Positions 34,243-44,447 of a DNA stretch of 64,000 nt are shown piece after piece. The stretch is from NCBI GenBank assembly GCA_913061495.1, contig CAJXVG010000002.1, forward strand, positions 1 to 64,000, written 5' to 3'. Under the pieces are notes generated by a model. The model was not told the origin of the DNA, did not search any database, and saw only the letters and a list, made by a program, of their open reading frames with translations. The translations under genes and the position numbers were made by a program. Position 1 is the first letter of the stretch; every line of letters begins with the position of its first letter. The stretch comes from an uncultured Winogradskyella sp. GTDB taxonomy: Bacteria; Bacteroidota; Bacteroidia; Flavobacteriales; Flavobacteriaceae.

Positions 34243-34415
34243 ATAATCCCACTCAGCACATTCCCCTACATTCCGTGAAAAGAGCTTCATTACAAAGGTC
34301 TTGGACACAATCCCCAATTTCAGTTTTCCATTCCGTTAACCCTTCCCGTCCCGAAACTTCGGGACTGGGAAGGAACACTACATTTCCGTACCAAAATCGT
34401 GAATTAATTTCGCTT
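34243..34415 (+). repeat. Islet-flanking repeat, copy A (contains bulged hairpin 34341-34373)
   Basis: Imperfect direct repeat with 40802-41003: ACTCAGCACATTCCCCT, ACAAAGGTCTTGGACACAAT, CAATTTCAG, AACCCTTCCC...GGGAAGGAACAC, AATCGTGAATTAA. Confidence 0.92.
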
Positions 34416-35812: not shown

Positions 35813-36580
35813 ATGCCAAAGATTATTGAAAATAAACTGATACAAGCTTTCAAAGACCGTAGTTCTTTTGATAGGGATGCGCTATATAACTTCTATCTGG
35901 ATTTCGAACCAGACCTAAAAGAAAGTACATTTAGTTGGCGAATTTATGACCTGAAGAAAAAGGACATAATTAAAACCATTGGTCGTGGACTTTATGTTAT
36001 TTCCTATAAACCTAAATATAAACCTCTTCTATCTGATAGTGTGTTCAAAATAGCCCGTAAAACCAATGAGCGTTTTGAAGATATAAAATATGCCATTTGG
36101 GAAACCCAATGGCTCAATGAGTTTTCTCAGCACCAGACGTCAAATCAAATGATTGTCGTCGAAGTAGAAAAAGAGTTTGTAGACTCACTCTATTACTACC
36201 TAAATGATAATCTAAGAATGGATTTTTTCCTAAATCCAGATGAAAAGGAAATTCAATTCTATATTTCAGAAAGTAACGTGCCAGTTATCATTAAACGTTT
36301 GGTGACAAGGGCACCCATACAAAAAATAAAAAATAAAAAAGCGGTAGTGCCCATTGCAACACTTGAAAAGATTATGGTGGACCTGTTTGCAGATGAAAAT
36401 CTGCTACATTTTTACCAAGGTTCTGAAATGGTAAACATCTACGAGAAAATAATTGATAGATATAGCATCAATTTTACAAAGTTGTTCAGCTATGCCAAGC
36501 GACGAAAAAAAGAACAGGAAATAAAGCAGTTTATAAGCAACAACATTCCAAATTTCTTAGAAGATATTAAATATGATTAA
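35813..36580 (+). CDS. AbiEi-like antitoxin/regulator (type IV TA; DUF6577-like)
   Basis: N-terminal winged-helix-like segment (STFSWRIYDLKKKDIIKTIGRGLYVIS), genetically coupled to AbiEii gene. Confidence 0.7.
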   Translation: MPKIIENKLIQAFKDRSSFDRDALYNFYLDFEPDLKESTFSWRIYDLKKKDIIKTIGRGLYVISYKPKYKPLLSDSVFKIARKTNERFEDIKYAIWETQWLNEFSQHQTSNQMIVVEVEKEFVDSLYYYLNDNLRMDFFLNPDEKEIQFYISESNVPVIIKRLVTRAPIQKIKNKKAVVPIATLEKIMVDLFADENLLHFYQGSEMVNIYEKIIDRYSINFTKLFSYAKRRKKEQEIKQFISNNIPNFLEDIKYD

Positions 36581-37676
36581 TAACAAAAGTTTTGAAAAGG
36601 AATGGCTGAATGGCTTCCGTGCAAAAAAGGAACATAAGGGTATCGATGTAACTATATTGGAAAAAATGGTTCACGCACTATCATTACTCGAACATTTAAA
36701 AGTTTTAGGACTTGATTTTGTTTTCAAAGGTGGAACATCACTTGTGCTTTTGCTAAAAGAAGGGAACCGATTTTCTATTGATATCGATATTATTTCCAGC
36801 GTTGAGCGTGATAAATTAGAAGAAATTTTGGATGCAGTTGTAGCCAATTCACATTTCAAAAAGCACGTGCTTAATGAGCATAGAAGTTATAAGGAAGGTG
36901 TTCCAAAGGCACATTACACCTTTGAGTTCGAGTCGGTATATAATCCAAACGTTCCTGGAACCATTCTATTGGATATCCTTTTTGACAGTCCGCACTATCC
37001 AGAACTTATAGAATCGCCCATTGAAACACCTTGGCTTTCCATTGATGGAACTGCTACAACAATTACTACGCCTTCGGTAAACGCTATTTGTGGCGATAAG
37101 CTAACAGCTTTTGCACCAGATACCATAGGCATACCATACTACAAAGGCGACCAGTTATTTGCAATGGAAATCTGCAAGCAATTGTTCGACTTGGGAAAAC
37201 TTTTTGAAAATATTTCTGATGTAGCAATGGTAAAGAAAAGTTTTTCAGCTTTCGCGAAAGCAGAACTATCCTATCGAAGTTCGGACAAGGATTTTAGTAA
37301 AAGGAAACTCAATGAAAAGGATGTGCTATGGGATTCCATAAATACCTGTGCTATTATGGCAAGACGAGAACGTAACCCAACCGCTGAAAAGAAAAAGAAA
37401 TTTGCAGATTTAAGCTCTGGCATACGAAGCTTTGGTAGCGCATTTTTAATGACAGGGAACTTTAGGATTGAAGAAGCATTGGCAGCTTCGGCCAAAGTAG
37501 CTTATTTGAATGCTATTATTCTACAAAAAGAGGATGTTGAAATAGAATATTATGAGAATCAGGATACAAAGGAATTGGTTATTAAAAATCCGGATTGGGC
37601 CTTTTTGAACAGATTAAAACGCCAACCCGATAAATCTATATTTTATTATTGGAACAAGGCGGTAGAACTATTGTAA
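36573..37676 (+). CDS. Nucleotidyl transferase AbiEii/AbiGii toxin family protein
   Basis: FVFKGGTSLVLLLKEGNRFSIDIDIIS nucleotidyltransferase motif; overlaps upstream stop by 8 nt. Confidence 0.9.
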   Translation: MINNKSFEKEWLNGFRAKKEHKGIDVTILEKMVHALSLLEHLKVLGLDFVFKGGTSLVLLLKEGNRFSIDIDIISSVERDKLEEILDAVVANSHFKKHVLNEHRSYKEGVPKAHYTFEFESVYNPNVPGTILLDILFDSPHYPELIESPIETPWLSIDGTATTITTPSVNAICGDKLTAFAPDTIGIPYYKGDQLFAMEICKQLFDLGKLFENISDVAMVKKSFSAFAKAELSYRSSDKDFSKRKLNEKDVLWDSINTCAIMARRERNPTAEKKKKFADLSSGIRSFGSAFLMTGNFRIEEALAASAKVAYLNAIILQKEDVEIEYYENQDTKELVIKNPDWAFLNRLKRQPDKSIFYYWNKAVELL

Positions 37677-37686
37677 ATTAATGTGA

Positions 37687-39105
37687 ATGGAATTAAAGTA
37701 TATTATAGAAATCTGTGTCGCTATCGACATCGCAATTTTGGGTATAGCATATCCTATTATCGTGGATAAAATATCCAATATAGGTCACAAGTTTTCATCA
37801 AACTATCTGGCTAATGCTTTTGAAAATGAATTTCCGCAGATAAAACTTTTTGGGATAATTCCCGGAAGGTCAAGAAGAATAACAGTATTTGAATGGGTTT
37901 TGTTCTTTACAATCGGCTCTTTTATATTCTTAATATTAGACCGTGAACCTTTTTTTTGGAAGGATAGTTGGATGATGCAAAACTCAGCAAAACTTCTAAC
38001 GCTATTCTTAACAATATCATTGGTTGTTATTTTTATTATTTGGTTAGATAAGGTTTCGCTGTACAATGGCAAGTCCACACGTTTGCTTACCTATATAATT
38101 TCCGAATACCGAAAGCTAAAAAAAGATCAAGATGATAAATACCATTTTAAGATTATCAATGAACTTGCAATATTTGCCATTAGGACACAGGATAAAGGTT
38201 TAGAAGAAACATTGGTTAATTTCTACACGGAAGAATTCAATAATTACCGTGCTAACTTCATTAGACCAAGAGAGGAAGAAAAACCAGATGGATTTGAAAA
38301 CTTTAAAGTTGAGTTTAATCACGAGTTCCACTATGGTATCAGGGAAATCATTAGAGAAGTTGCCAAAGGTAGAAATGAAGACTTGCAAAGTCTCGAATAT
38401 TTTGTTGTAAGTGGCGTATGGTTAATGGGACAAGGTATTTTTGAAACACCCATCTCAAATGACACCTATAAAGAACTTTGGCGCAATGTTGTGCTCATAT
38501 CAAACAATCCCAAATTTATAGGTAACTATTGGGGTACGGCACATCAATATTTTAATTTTGGATTGCAACGAGTCTATGGCACAGATTACAATTTTGAGAC
38601 TAAAAAATATGATAACCAGTCATTAATAGATAAAAGAGACAACGAAAGAAAACGTTTTTTTGAGTTTCACTTGGCCTTAGGAGGCTTATTGATATACCAG
38701 AAAAACTATGAAGCACTTAAAACGCTGTTTACATACACACAACACCAGCCACCTAAATATGTTCTGCTTCCTAATAATATGACCGAGATTTTTACGTGGT
38801 TCAGTAGCTTTAAAGACGAGTTTGGGAGAGGTTATTACCCTATTGATTTATCATACCCTTTCCCAGGATTGGATAATTTAGGGAACAGAAGGCGCGTTAC
38901 ATTCTACATCTGTCAGTATTTGACATTGCTTTTTTTAAGACAGTTTAAACTGCCAGAACACAATACCTACGATAACTTCACAAGACAACCTACTTTACCA
39001 CAAACCGAAGTGTTAGAACTATTACGATGGCAAGAATCCATAAATTATTTCAGGTTTTGTTTAAAAAAGGTGTTGAAAGATGAAAATCTCTTAAATACAA
39101 TATGA
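37687..39105 (+). CDS. Hypothetical membrane protein (N-terminal TMs, large cytosolic domain)
   Basis: About three N-terminal hydrophobic segments; first gene of three-gene run. Confidence 0.6.
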   Translation: MELKYIIEICVAIDIAILGIAYPIIVDKISNIGHKFSSNYLANAFENEFPQIKLFGIIPGRSRRITVFEWVLFFTIGSFIFLILDREPFFWKDSWMMQNSAKLLTLFLTISLVVIFIIWLDKVSLYNGKSTRLLTYIISEYRKLKKDQDDKYHFKIINELAIFAIRTQDKGLEETLVNFYTEEFNNYRANFIRPREEEKPDGFENFKVEFNHEFHYGIREIIREVAKGRNEDLQSLEYFVVSGVWLMGQGIFETPISNDTYKELWRNVVLISNNPKFIGNYWGTAHQYFNFGLQRVYGTDYNFETKKYDNQSLIDKRDNERKRFFEFHLALGGLLIYQKNYEALKTLFTYTQHQPPKYVLLPNNMTEIFTWFSSFKDEFGRGYYPIDLSYPFPGLDNLGNRRRVTFYICQYLTLLFLRQFKLPEHNTYDNFTRQPTLPQTEVLELLRWQESINYFRFCLKKVLKDENLLNTI

Positions 39106-39106
39106 T

Positions 39107-40018
39107 ATGAAAAAGAAGGAGATAAAGAAGCTAAAAAAGAAGTCATCAAAATTTATTGATGTTCTCGAGTCATCAATTGAAGAGGCTATTGAAGCTGCAA
39201 GATTAAATGCGGATATTGACTACGAAAAAGAATGGGAATTCTATGAAAAATCTAAAGATGCGATTGTTGGAGCATTAGAAAAGTTTGATAGTATTCAAAA
39301 TTCAGAGAAGGATTTTGAAGGAGAGCCTACTATATCTTTCGGTGTAAACGGTACAATGAATTTATTTCAAAAATCTGCATTTACAACTGGAGATATTCCA
39401 CATCTAAATGCAGACACGATATTATCCCAGCAGATAGTTTACCAGAACATCAATTATTATATTCCCAATGCGTTTTTATCGGCACGGAAAAAGAGGTATC
39501 TTCTTCGCAAAGAAGATTTGGTAAAAGGGATAGAAAAATTAGGATTTGATGTGGACAGAGATATTATGGTAGCAATGAATCTCAATATATATGGCATCGA
39601 TGATTTCCAGAACATTGAGGAACATATAACACGAGTTCCATCTACAGGACTCAAAAATGTACTATTCGTTTTACCGAAAGCCGATTTGCCTATCCTAAAA
39701 CATAAAGAACTTGAGGATAGTGAACAGCAAGAACATCAATTGGGCATATTAGATGATGATAGAAAAATCTATGGTTCTTTAATCGACCTAACACAAGATG
39801 CCAATGCGGGACATAGAGAAAAATGGAAAAATTCAAACGTTGATTTTGCGACCGATTTAAAAGTACAGCTAACTATAGCTTTTATTACTGAAGTTGTTTG
39901 GAAAGCCAATGCCAATGTAGTTCAAATTAATATTGAAACTTCATTAAAGGAACAAGGCATCGTAAATGAGCTGTCTGATATAGAGAAGTTGGTGCCAAAA
40001 AAGGAAACTAATGATTGA
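39107..40018 (+). CDS. Hypothetical protein
   Basis: Starts immediately after the preceding stop; overlaps next gene by 8 nt. Confidence 0.6.
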   Translation: MKKKEIKKLKKKSSKFIDVLESSIEEAIEAARLNADIDYEKEWEFYEKSKDAIVGALEKFDSIQNSEKDFEGEPTISFGVNGTMNLFQKSAFTTGDIPHLNADTILSQQIVYQNINYYIPNAFLSARKKRYLLRKEDLVKGIEKLGFDVDRDIMVAMNLNIYGIDDFQNIEEHITRVPSTGLKNVLFVLPKADLPILKHKELEDSEQQEHQLGILDDDRKIYGSLIDLTQDANAGHREKWKNSNVDFATDLKVQLTIAFITEVVWKANANVVQINIETSLKEQGIVNELSDIEKLVPKKETND

Positions 40019-40802
40019 GTTCAGAAACCCTCATCACATAGAACCACCAGGCGTTTTGAGACAAATTCTATCTCATCCTGCAAATGACACAGAAGTTATT
40101 GAACTTGCAGTTTTTCAAGAACATCGTTACGCATTTTTCTATTGGAACAAATGGATGCAAGACAACAAATCTAAGATTCCACCTTGTTTGGTTTCATTGG
40201 ATTGGCATCAGGATTTATGCCATCCGTGTGAAACAGAAAGAGAATGGCTTGATAAATTGGATTTGACAAGCGATGCTGAAGTCGCTTTGTTTTCTTGGGC
40301 CAAATTAGCTGGAAATAACGATGGGCATATTCTGTGTGCGGCATATCTTAACTTGATTGGCGATATTTATGTGCATTGTAGGCAAGAAATGGGACCAAAT
40401 ACTTGGCAAGATGAAGAATTGATAGACACCTATGGCAACAAACACACCATCAAAAAATTCAAAACTTATGAAGGTCTTCAAGATGCGCTTCTGAAGGCGT
40501 CAAAGTCGTCCGTATTTTTTGATATTGATTTGGATTTCTTTTCAGTAAATAACGGCCTGAGTGATGGCTCGTTCGAATTCACGTATCTTCAAGAAGAAGA
40601 AATAAGAACGATGTTGGATAAAGACCATCCGCTAATAAGTTGGATTTTTGAGCGGATAAAAGGGTTTACTATTGCAACAGAACCTGAACATTGTGGTGGG
40701 CTTTTAAAAAGCAACAAATTTCTTGACCTAATTAGTGACATTTATTTCAACCCAGAGTTATTTGCCCCAAAATGCAATTGGAAATGGAAACCAAAGTATT
40801 AA
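40011..40802 (+). CDS. UPF0489-like protein (arginase/deacetylase-like motifs)
   Basis: PCLVSLDWHQDLCHP and VFFDIDLDFFSV metal-ligand-like motifs. Confidence 0.65.
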   Translation: MIEFRNPHHIEPPGVLRQILSHPANDTEVIELAVFQEHRYAFFYWNKWMQDNKSKIPPCLVSLDWHQDLCHPCETEREWLDKLDLTSDAEVALFSWAKLAGNNDGHILCAAYLNLIGDIYVHCRQEMGPNTWQDEELIDTYGNKHTIKKFKTYEGLQDALLKASKSSVFFDIDLDFFSVNNGLSDGSFEFTYLQEEEIRTMLDKDHPLISWIFERIKGFTIATEPEHCGGLLKSNKFLDLISDIYFNPELFAPKCNWKWKPKY

Positions 40803-41003
40803 TAATCCACTCAGCACATTCCCCTGCATTTCACGCTCGCCTGCTGAAAAAGCAGGCAACCACTTCACTTCGGGAAAAGAGCTTCACTACAAAGGTCTTG
40901 GACACAATTCCCAATTTCAGCTTTCCATTCCGCTAACCCTTCCCGCTATGCTGGGAAGGAACACTTCATTCCAGAGCCGAAATCGTGAATTAAGTCCGCT
41001 TTT
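40802..41003 (+). repeat. Islet-flanking repeat, copy B (hairpins 40839-40857 and 40938-40959)
   Basis: See copy A; contains extra segment with GCCTGCT-GAAAA-AGCAGGC hairpin. Confidence 0.92.
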
Positions 41004-41037
41004 CTAATCGGAAAGCCATCGCTTTGATTTTCTTGAC

Positions 41038-41383
41038 AGGATTTTCGGCGCGGTCTTCTTGAGCCCTCACTCGAAAATCCTTAAAAACCAAACCGCTGTC
41101 TTACACATTTTAAGGGGTTTATAATGGATAAAGCCTTTGTTGTTTTTCGGGTCATCGAAAAACAGGCACGACATAACCAATTCTAACTTAACCACAGTTG
41201 CTTATCTCGCTTAACTGTCGGTACGCTCAAACGCAACTGCGTTTAAAAGAATTGCTAATGCCCTTATGGAACTTGTCAAGACTGTACGAGTTTTAGGGAA
41301 AAATAAGGCTTCTACTTCCTTGAAAATCCGAGGATTTTACTACGTCGCAAACACACCTGATTTTACCCTAAAAGTCTTGACAA
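41038..41383. other. Hairpin-rich noncoding region (candidate replication/transfer origin or structured RNA)
   Basis: AGGATTTTCG/CGAAAATCCT (41038-41081), GTTTTTCG/CGAAAAAC (41142-41163), AAACGC/GCGTTT (41229-41244), TTGTCAAGAC+TTTTAGGG / CCCTAAAA+GTCTTGACAA (41273-41383) enclosing AAAATCC/GGATTTT (41323-41338). Confidence 0.8.
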
Positions 41384-41511
41384 AACCCACTCTATCCATT
41401 GTGCGGTGCACGAAAGAAAAGAACAAACACCCCTTAAAATTTAATTCAGTTTAAAACAAATAGGGGAAATATAAACCAGTCTGTAACAAAGCAGACACAA
41501 ATCTTTTTATT

Positions 41512-41856
41512 ATGAGTACTATTAGAAATCACGTACAATTGATTGGAAACGTTGGACAAGAGCCAACCATTACGAACCTTGAAAGCGGTAAAAAAGTAGC
41601 CCGTTTTTCATTAGCCACAAATGAGTATTACAAAGACAGCAAAGGCGAAAAGCAAACGGACACCAACTGGCATACCGTAGTGGCTTGGGGCAAGACGGCT
41701 GAAATCGTTGAAAAATTTGTCGAAAAAGGCAAAGAAGTAGGAATTACAGGGAAGCTAAAGACCCGAACCTACACTACCGATGATGGCAACCAACGCTATG
41801 TAACGGAAGTTGTAGCCGATGAAATCCTATTACTTGGAAGCAAAAACGACAAGTAA
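41512..41856 (+). CDS. ssb: Single-stranded DNA-binding protein
   Basis: RNHVQLIGNVGQEPTITNLESGKKVARFSLATNE, TNWHTVVAWGKTAE. Confidence 0.95.
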   Translation: MSTIRNHVQLIGNVGQEPTITNLESGKKVARFSLATNEYYKDSKGEKQTDTNWHTVVAWGKTAEIVEKFVEKGKEVGITGKLKTRTYTTDDGNQRYVTEVVADEILLLGSKNDK

Positions 41857-41934: not shown

Positions 41935-42384
41935 ATGAAAGCACAAGTTAACGAAATAAAAATAAGCTACAAAGGAGGGTTAAAATCCTCTGAGTGGCAA
42001 AAAATAAGTAGTTCACAAGATGCGGCTGAACTGCTCTTTGAGGATTGGGATAAAGATAGAATCGCCATACAGGAAACTTTCAAAGTTGTATTGTTGAATA
42101 ACAGTAACAAAGTGAAAGGTGTCTATCAATTGTCACAAGGCGGAATTACAAGCACATTAATCGACCTGCGGATTTTGTTTGCTGTCATATTGAAATCCCT
42201 ATCTGTAGCTATAATTCTAACGCATAATCACCCAAGCGGAAAATTGATGCCAAGTGAGGCAGATAAAAACCTTACAAGCAAAATAAAAAAGGCAGCACAA
42301 TTATTCGATATTACCATTCTGGACCATTTGATATTTGCACCTGATGGGAATTATTATAGCTTTTCTGATAATGGACTTTTATAA
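41935..42384 (+). CDS. JAB domain-containing protein (RadC-like)
   Basis: LTHNHPSGKLMPSEADKNLTSKI JAMM motif. Confidence 0.92.
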   Translation: MKAQVNEIKISYKGGLKSSEWQKISSSQDAAELLFEDWDKDRIAIQETFKVVLLNNSNKVKGVYQLSQGGITSTLIDLRILFAVILKSLSVAIILTHNHPSGKLMPSEADKNLTSKIKKAAQLFDITILDHLIFAPDGNYYSFSDNGLL

Positions 42385-42395
42385 ATTAGAAAGCT

Positions 42396-42593
42396 ATGAT
42401 TTATTTGAATTTTACCGATTTGAGCGAGGAAACACAAGAGCGATTACTTGCCAATTCTAAGGAAGATGTAAAGGAAAAATATGGCAAGGATATTATGGAT
42501 TATGCAACCAAGCATAATACCAATTTGGACAAGATGTTGGACGAAGAAGCGTTGCGAAATTTATATTCCTACACCTATATATTCAATATCTGA
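42396..42593 (+). CDS. Small hypothetical protein
   Basis: 65-aa ORF directly downstream of JAB gene and before a terminator. Confidence 0.55.
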   Translation: MIYLNFTDLSEETQERLLANSKEDVKEKYGKDIMDYATKHNTNLDKMLDEEALRNLYSYTYIFNI

Positions 42594-42614
42594 TTTACAA
42601 GAATTTAAAAGAAG

Positions 42615-42640
42615 CACCTCTAAAAATTTAGAGGTGTTTT
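42615..42640 (+). terminator. Intrinsic terminator
   Basis: Perfect CACCTCTAAA-AA-TTTAGAGGTG followed by TTTTTG. Confidence 0.88.
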
Positions 42641-42713
42641 TGTATGTAATTAATATATAATCAAGAAAAAAACGTATCTTTATTTCGCTGAAATTCAGCA
42701 TTCAAATTTAAGT

Positions 42714-42905
42714 AGGGTTATCCAATTTTCGACTTTCGCCGATAACCCTGCACATCGAATAATAACATATCGGAAAATCATTTTCCCTGAAAATGGCAAT
42801 CGGCTTTTTAGCCAGATTGTATGGATTTTTGTCACGCTTGCGCGTGACGAAAAGGAATAGCAAGAGGGTAACGGGCTGCGCCGCGTTACATATTCCATTT
42901 TCGTT
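42714..42905. other. Candidate oriT region
   Basis: AGGGTTATC/GATAACCCT (42714-42749), GTCACGC-TTGC-GCGTGAC (42831-42848), GTAACG/CGTTAC (42868-42889) inside outer stem CGAAAAGGAATA/TATTCCATTTTCG; upstream of mobilization genes. Confidence 0.55.
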
Positions 42906-42959
42906 TTAATCTATTGACTTTTAAGCACTTAAAAATAAAGTAGATATAAAAAACCCATC

Positions 42960-43035: not shown

Positions 43036-43416
43036 ATGGACTCATTCATCACAATTAGGTTCAAACGGAAAACTGCCAAAAGGTTTCAGGAATTTTCTAA
43101 GAAGCACTTCAAAACGCACACCGAAGCGATGGAAAATATCCTTGATTTTTTCCTTTACAATGAGATATCGCCAAAGGAAAAATTGGGGCCAACTGGACGT
43201 ACCATCGAAGCTAAGTTACTCAAAAGAATCAATGCGGTTATTGCCATAATGCGTGATGTGGAAAAGACCCAAACCAAACCTACGGTTGCAATGTTGCAAT
43301 CCCTTTTTGTAATGGACGAACCCAAAAAGAAACCACTCATTTTGGAAAAAAAATATGCTGAGGAAAAGAAAGAAGTACGCTTTCGCGAAAAGCGAAACAC
43401 CAACAATAAACTTTAA
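43036..43416 (+). CDS. BfmA/BtgA family mobilization accessory protein
   Basis: FITIRFKRKTAKRFQEFSKKHFKTHTEAMENILDFF, RHH-like; precedes relaxase. Confidence 0.75.
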   Translation: MDSFITIRFKRKTAKRFQEFSKKHFKTHTEAMENILDFFLYNEISPKEKLGPTGRTIEAKLLKRINAVIAIMRDVEKTQTKPTVAMLQSLFVMDEPKKKPLILEKKYAEEKKEVRFREKRNTNNKL

Positions 43417-43427
43417 AAAGTTAGCTT

Positions 43428-44447
43428 ATGTACATCACAATCACAGCTCAAAAAATGGGCGGTAACTTTTCCAAAAGTTCAGCAGATTTTGTGGGCTATT
43501 TAGAGAAGGAAAATCAAGGATTGGAACATCAGGATATGGAACATTTTTTCAATCAATATGGCGATGAGATTTCTGCGCAAGAAGTAGTCAAAGAGATAGA
43601 TGGTAATACCGCAAAATTAGAAAAACACGAACCAAGATTCTATTCAATTACCGTGAGCCCTTCAAAATATGAATTGCGAAAACTTCAGAACAGTAGCGAA
43701 GATTTAAAAAGATATACTCGCGAGCTGATGAAGGATTATGTGGCTTCATTTAATAGAGAAATTAAAGGGCGACCTGTCAGTATCGACGACATAAAATATT
43801 ATGCGAAAATTGAACATCAACGCACATTTAAGGGGACGGATTTTCAGGTAAAGGAAAACCAACCCTTTGCCACAAAAATACTTCAGTTAAAAACGGATAT
43901 CCGAAATATTCAAGAAGGGCGAGCTGAAGGAAATATCAAAAAGATGAAAAATGAAATTGCCAAACTGGAACGTCAAGCACCACATCAACAAAATGGAAAA
44001 CGGATTGTCCAGGGAATGGCGAAAGATGGAAACCAAAGTCATATCCATATCATCGTGAGCCGAAAGGATGCATCAAACAGATTTAGTTTGTCACCCGGAA
44101 GCAAATACAAAGCTTCCGATGTGAAGTTGAATGGGGAAACCGTAAAACGTGGTTTTGACCGAGACAAGTTTTTTGAGAAAGCTGAAAAGACGTTTGACTA
44201 TAAACGCAATTTTGCCGAGACCTACAAAGCACGAAAGGATTTTGTAAAAAATCCCAATCTATATTTCGCAGCCTTGATGAAATTACCAGCAAATGAAAAG
44301 GCATTGGCTTTCAAAATGATTACAAAAACGGGATTGCCGATAGTGCCAAGTATTCCAGTAAGTCAAACGCAAATTGCACTTCGGGTTTTGAAACGGTTAA
44401 GACGTGGTGCTGAAGTGGCCATCAAATCAAGTTCAATAGGAATTTAG
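43428..44447 (+). CDS. Mobilization relaxase (DUF5712/BtgB-like)
   Basis: GNQSHIHIIVSRKDASN histidine motif, N-terminal YITITAQKMGGNFSKSSADFVGYLEKE. Confidence 0.8.
   Translation: MYITITAQKMGGNFSKSSADFVGYLEKENQGLEHQDMEHFFNQYGDEISAQEVVKEIDGNTAKLEKHEPRFYSITVSPSKYELRKLQNSSEDLKRYTRELMKDYVASFNREIKGRPVSIDDIKYYAKIEHQRTFKGTDFQVKENQPFATKILQLKTDIRNIQEGRAEGNIKKMKNEIAKLERQAPHQQNGKRIVQGMAKDGNQSHIHIIVSRKDASNRFSLSPGSKYKASDVKLNGETVKRGFDRDKFFEKAEKTFDYKRNFAETYKARKDFVKNPNLYFAALMKLPANEKALAFKMITKTGLPIVPSIPVSQTQIALRVLKRLRRGAEVAIKSSSIGI

Follow-up and report, generated by a model that had tools for sequence, protein, structure and literature searches.

The 64,000-nt window analysed here, from a contig of an uncultured Winogradskyella sp., contains a non-coding segment at 41004-41511, between a UPF0489-like cargo gene (stop at 40802) and the ssb gene (start at 41512). 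The features of the segment and its neighborhood are as follows.

34249-34415, related copy of a repeat of about 200 bp, with its hairpin at about 34296-34412
40803-41003, the repeat of about 200 bp, which flanks the cargo block and precedes the structure
40900-40999, minus strand, repeat hairpin GGACACAATTCC...AATTAAGTCC of about 100 nt, directly before the core
41038-41081, minus strand, hairpin AGGATTTTCG/CGAAAATCCT, standing apart from the core on the side away from ssb
41107-41440, minus strand, core multibranched single-strand structure, termed type A (DNA fold z -8.3; consensus fold from 31 homologues)
41107-41118/41429-41440, closing stem of the core, a perfect 12 bp that joins all arms into one multibranched structure
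41133-41167, minus strand, third arm, GCC+GTTTTTCG/CGAAAAAC+GGC, almost invariant (consensus helices 13 and 14)
41172-41260 (41172-41201 with 41233-41260), minus strand, second arm (consensus helix 10; inverted repeats I3 and I4)
41265-41389, minus strand, long arm, containing a nested 111-nt structure at 41273-41383 (consensus helices 5, 6 and 8)
41401-41411, minus strand, small hairpin GTGC-GGT-GCAC, invariant (consensus helix 2)
41512-41856, plus strand, ssb (Pfam SSB, 2.8e-34), which adjoins the structure in the compared loci having ssb
41935-42384, plus strand, radC, a RadC-like JAB-domain gene
42396-42593, plus strand, orf65, a small ORF of 65 aa between radC and oriT, conserved in most loci
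42830-42890, minus strand, predicted oriT, with the hairpin GTAACGGGC/GCCGCGTTAC next to an invariant core AGCAAGAGGGTA (42859) and a second hairpin GTCACGC/GCGTGAC
43036-44447, plus strand, mobA (BfmA family) and the mobB relaxase gene (DUF5712) (NCBIfam NF041200 and NF041495)

The cargo block includes an AbiEi/AbiEii-type gene pair at 35813-37676 (PADLOC AbiEi, 2.7e-94; AbiEii, 3.5e-129), whose neighbors are a NOV_C-domain gene and genes without a Pfam match (37687-40018); the UPF0489-like gene (40011-40802) weakly resembles a peptide arginase model (5.7e-10, below the cut-off). No NCBIfam model matched orf65, which is possibly a relaxosome or leading-region protein.

A sequence-only reading of the window had described a hairpin-rich non-coding region of about 500 bp before ssb, and dinucleotide shuffling confirms that the segment is structured far above chance. 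Folded as RNA it gave z -4.6 for the plus strand and -6.9 for the minus strand, and folded as DNA -4.3 and -8.3; on each strand none of 100 shuffles reached the real energy, under either set of parameters. In twelve control stretches from other parts of the window z ranged from +1.8 to -3.1, except at 42450-42930, which covers the predicted oriT (z about -4.6). The individual stems that had been named were mostly found as described: AGGATTTTCG/CGAAAATCCT at 41038-41047/41072-41081, GTTTTTCG/CGAAAAAC at 41142-41149/41156-41163, and the 111-nt nested structure at 41273-41383, built from TTGTCAAGACT/AGTCTTGACAA plus TTTTAGGG/CCCTAAAA around AAAATCC-GA-GGATTTT. The conserved pairing is not the further named stem AAACGC/GCGTTT, which is lost in homologues, but the alternative helix 41172-41201/41233-41260, which they keep and covary. 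The 12-bp closing stem (41107-41118/41429-41440) had been missed. The same reading saw no convincing ORF, and rightly so: the 62-aa ORF at 41266 is not conserved, and in 21 homologues the longest ATG ORF within 520 nt ranges in length from 31 to 65 aa. We rejected a protein-coding gene on the ground that longest-ORF length is not conserved.

Other Winogradskyella species have the segment at 91-95% identity. A search with the mobB relaxase found relatives (54-95% identity) in many Flavobacteriaceae genera, and the directly annotated loci share the order repeat-structure-ssb-(radC)-orf65-oriT-mobA-mobB-mobC. Of 80 further loci, 76 have ssb together with the structure, and the other four end near mobA at a contig edge. 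The main structure is present in a single copy in the genome, and in relatives it lies at ssb. The region before ssb in these relatives takes one of two forms. The segment in the window belongs to the multibranched class, type A. Type B is an extended, imperfectly paired rod of about 310 nt, seen for example in loci L054-L063 apart from L055 and L059. Both types lie directly before ssb and are structured as strongly as the segment in the window. Shared ancestry of the two types was considered and rejected, the similarity of their consensus sequences not being significant (37 of 200 shuffles score as high). Type B is also carried by one class-level relative outside the family. The distant DUF5712 relaxases of other families that we examined had neither ssb nor the structure alongside, and a plasmid collection searched with the DNA gave no match. 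As separate observations, three loci (L124, L126 and L130) have a tandem ssb pair with a type A structure before the first copy, and locus L055 (G000 contig C223) is a second mobB module, 81% identical, in the same genome, on a 4.4-kb contig.

Conservation of the fold itself, as distinct from that of the letters, was measured by compensatory change. The type A alignment has 31 non-redundant sequences and a strand-neutral consensus structure of 96 pairs, in which 97.4% of cells are paired; 17 pairs (66 cells) show changes on both sides, against shuffled means of 6.3 pairs and 18.1 cells; slid-pair controls gave 3-6 and 3-12, respectively. The helix covarying most strongly is the tip hairpin of the long arm at 41322-41338, with compensatory AU, UA and CG pairs; in helix 10, the second arm, six of the 11 pairs have changes on both sides. 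The type B alignment (15 sequences, 73 pairs) is 94.7% paired, a percentage that leans toward the minus strand because the structure was derived from that strand with wobbles allowed; changes on both sides occur in 21 pairs and 73 cells, against shuffled means of 11.5 and 26.0. None of 500 shuffles reached the observed value in any covariation measure, for either type.

Two lines of evidence identify the strand that folds. First, of 82 distinct regions upstream of ssb, 79 fold more stably on the minus strand. The remaining three come from loci with two tandem ssb genes, where the type A sequence stands before the first copy; they depart from the rule because the 480 nt taken there were mostly the first ssb. 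Second, we counted wobble pairs in a strand-neutral manner: the fold was made without wobble pairs, and helix cells departing from Watson-Crick pairing were scored as G.T on the minus strand or as A.C, which is a wobble on the plus strand. Type A helices have 68 G.T cells against 11 A.C, where composition alone predicts a ratio of 1.5, and type B helices 67 against 19, where it predicts 1.9; with 1x1 mismatches inside helices counted, the G.T:A.C figures become 108:11 and 94:19. These cells are not independent events, the sequences being related, and we therefore give the counts by columns alongside, which are 23 versus 10 for type A and 32 versus 14 for type B. From the stability and the wobble bias together we conclude that the structure kept by selection is on the strand complementary to the ssb mRNA, not on the mRNA leader. 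A structured 5' leader of the ssb mRNA, acting in autoregulation or in a riboswitch-like manner, would explain the location directly upstream of ssb, and the plus strand does also beat its shuffles; against the 79 of 82 regions and the G.T excesses of 68:11 and 67:19 on the opposite strand, we regard such a leader as very improbable.

A structured non-coding RNA transcribed from the minus strand, antisense to the ssb leader and controlling for example ssb or transfer, fits the covariation and the wobble bias equally well, since sequence cannot tell folding of single-stranded DNA from folding of an RNA of the same strand. However, a scan with Bacteroidota promoter motifs found no conserved promoter upstream of its 5' end, and its 3' end has no terminator-like site. 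The Rfam 15 covariance models gave no match at gathering or relaxed thresholds, one search returning matches far below the gathering scores. Moreover, type B and the repeat hairpin share the strand preference, which fits a property of a transferred strand (T-strand) better than it fits three unrelated RNAs, and the Frpo elements of the F plasmid behave alike. We consider the antisense RNA unlikely.

The repeat hairpin at 40900-40999 is a second element with the same signature. In 53 non-redundant copies its helix cells have 76 G.T against 17 A.C, with 12 covarying columns, again favoring the minus strand. Copies of the repeat recur between cargo genes in relatives, and the gene that follows a copy is on the plus strand in 81 of 83 cases, many of these being ssb. 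The repeat hairpin may be a second, smaller element active in single-stranded DNA, or a cassette boundary. In a further reading the main structure is a folded, attC-like recombination or attachment site and the neighboring repeats mark cargo cassettes. The hairpins around the cargo block (40900-40999 and about 34296-34412) and their recurrence between cargo genes speak for it, but the main structure occurs once in the genome and in relatives is invariably found at ssb, and inspection of the repeat by eye showed no integron-type core motif. The near-uniform orientation of the following gene also tells against it, though that gene is in many cases simply ssb; we think an attC-like site improbable.

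The relation of the structure to transfer depends on the predicted oriT. The 12-mer core AGCAAGAGGGTA occurs exactly once in the spacer before mobA in 96 of 102 loci, and both hairpins flanking it have compensatory variants. The oriT-like site at 42830-42890 is apparently also a good single marker for this element family. On the minus strand, the hairpin GTAAC...GTTAC ends directly before CCCTCTTGCTATTCC, touching the core on its 5' side. The usual oriT layout is a hairpin followed by the nick (PMC4652767), and that layout predicts that the minus strand is transferred, with orf65, radC, ssb and the structure entering first; from this layout and the gene order, the minus strand is the predicted T-strand. 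The position of the site at about 42.8-42.9 kb, before mobA and mobB, would accordingly mean that the leading region includes ssb, radC and the structure. Gene content speaks for this polarity: the commonest gene to the left of the structure encodes DUF932 (15 loci), which is also found in the leading region of F, and among ORFs in the 4 kb adjoining the structure, 158 of 203 read toward oriT, the ssb direction. The other 45 read the opposite way, and we count it against our model that only 78% of the ORFs left of the structure take the ssb direction.

Among known mobilization modules, the MobB/BfmA-type ones of Bacteroides (CTn341, Tn4555 and relatives) come close, as they too have mobA-mobB-mobC with an oriT upstream (NF041495, NF041200). 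The difference is that neither ssb nor the structure turned up next to the distant DUF5712 relaxases that we examined.

In the F plasmid, early expression of ssbF in recipients depends on the single-stranded DNA promoter Frpo2, located upstream of that gene (PMC9849209), and Frpo elements stand directly upstream of ssb in leading-region islands (PMC11541004). As controls we folded the Frpo1 region and, for Frpo2, the 480 nt that precede ssbF: both are rods of about 330 nt, with T-strand z values of -7.3 and -7.8, respectively, and the T-strand is more stable than its complement. The Frpo of F and the ssi of ColIb-P9 resemble the present element in lying in the leading region upstream of an ssb that reads toward oriT, in size (about 300-480 nt), and in having a T-strand, as predicted here, that folds more stably than its complement; they differ in that type A is multibranched rather than a rod, in their -35/-10 elements, of which none was identified here, and in that our hosts are Bacteroidota with chromosomal integrative and conjugative elements (ICEs). 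By the BLAST criterion of about 1e-6 used for Frpo/ssi similarity by Samuel et al. 2024, sequence kinship to Frpo was rejected: in a comparison with Frpo1 and Frpo2, only chance matches appeared (E >= 2.3). As position, polarity, size and strand preference match and sequence does not, we view the resemblance as functional and architectural, not one of descent.

The sequence-only reading had suggested either a single-strand or replication origin or a structured non-coding RNA, an interpretation that is partly supported. Its single-strand part gains support, because compensatory changes have preserved a fold in each of two unrelated classes, on one strand only, next to ssb and close to the predicted oriT; an RNA in the ssb sense is disfavored by the strand test. 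The closest functional match is Frpo rather than a plain replication origin. We propose, with a probability of roughly 0.55, that the segment serves a Bacteroidota ICE as a control element of the leading region, active while the DNA is single-stranded. In marine flavobacterial conjugative elements, the segment of about 350-450 bases before ssb probably works like Frpo, and it may turn on ssb before the incoming DNA has become double-stranded.

Under this proposal, transfer probably starts at oriT near 42.86 kb and the minus strand would enter the recipient with its 5' end first, so that orf65, radC, ssb and then the structured segment would arrive early; if the T-strand is indeed the minus one, the separate hairpin at 41038-41081 would follow the core into the recipient. 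In the recipient the minus strand would fold into the conserved structure, whose paired arms could offer double-stranded DNA to the recipient RNA polymerase. The polymerase would then transcribe out of the structure toward ssb with the incoming strand as template, and its RNA product may double as a primer for the second strand. Once the DNA became duplex, the structure would melt and be turned off, as for Frpo. A scan for the Bacteroidota -33/-7 promoter (TTTG/TAnnTTTG) found none conserved where polymerase would run toward ssb, and a weak match in the 3' arm of type B (TTATG-N23-TTRTTTTG) is suggestive only; since no promoter pair toward ssb is conserved, we infer RNA polymerase entry at the structure, as we do T-strand identity, early ssb expression and priming.

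A close rival, which need not exclude the promoter role, is that the structure provides a primer site for making the second strand. As a single-strand origin of the sso/ssi kind, the folded T-strand would recruit primase or RNA polymerase to make a primer for the complementary strand, after transfer or in rolling-circle replication, and the place beside ssb would be a matter of operon layout. Such an origin would have the same strand and geometry. In ICEBs1, the stem-loop region sso1, which resembles the pBAA1 sso in sequence and fold, is needed for stable acquisition (PMC4595007); the present element is likewise a stem-loop element on the (predicted) transferred strand of an ICE, but it is larger, tied to ssb, and unrelated in sequence as far as compared through Rfam and Frpo. 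Frpo itself is both a promoter and a site of primer RNA, according to the title of Masai and Arai 1997 as cited in PMC11541004, and conserved unpaired T-rich stretches in types A and B could be priming sites. On the other hand, the structure always stands directly before an ssb, and before the first copy in tandem loci, which a pure origin would not require. We judge a pure origin a real but lesser possibility, and continue to prefer the single-stranded DNA promoter.

Searches of the literature available to us found no earlier description of the element. Single-stranded DNA promoters have been demonstrated mainly in F-like plasmids, and little is known of how ICEs of Bacteroidota become established in a recipient. 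We give even odds to a broader view, that Bacteroidota ICEs carry their own, independently evolved single-stranded DNA promoters, with at least two unrelated fold classes before ssb that elements can interchange, together with a family of T-strand hairpins of about 100 nt that precede the main structure and cargo genes. With dozens of flavobacterial genomes carrying such an element at one set position before ssb, conserved in its fold, on one strand and in two unrelated forms, the question is open to direct test, and the strand-specific signature of wobble and covariation, which shows the working strand, offers a route to elements active in single-stranded DNA by comparative genomics. If the broader view is right, expressing leading genes from DNA that arrives single-stranded would be a convergent strategy outside the Proteobacteria.
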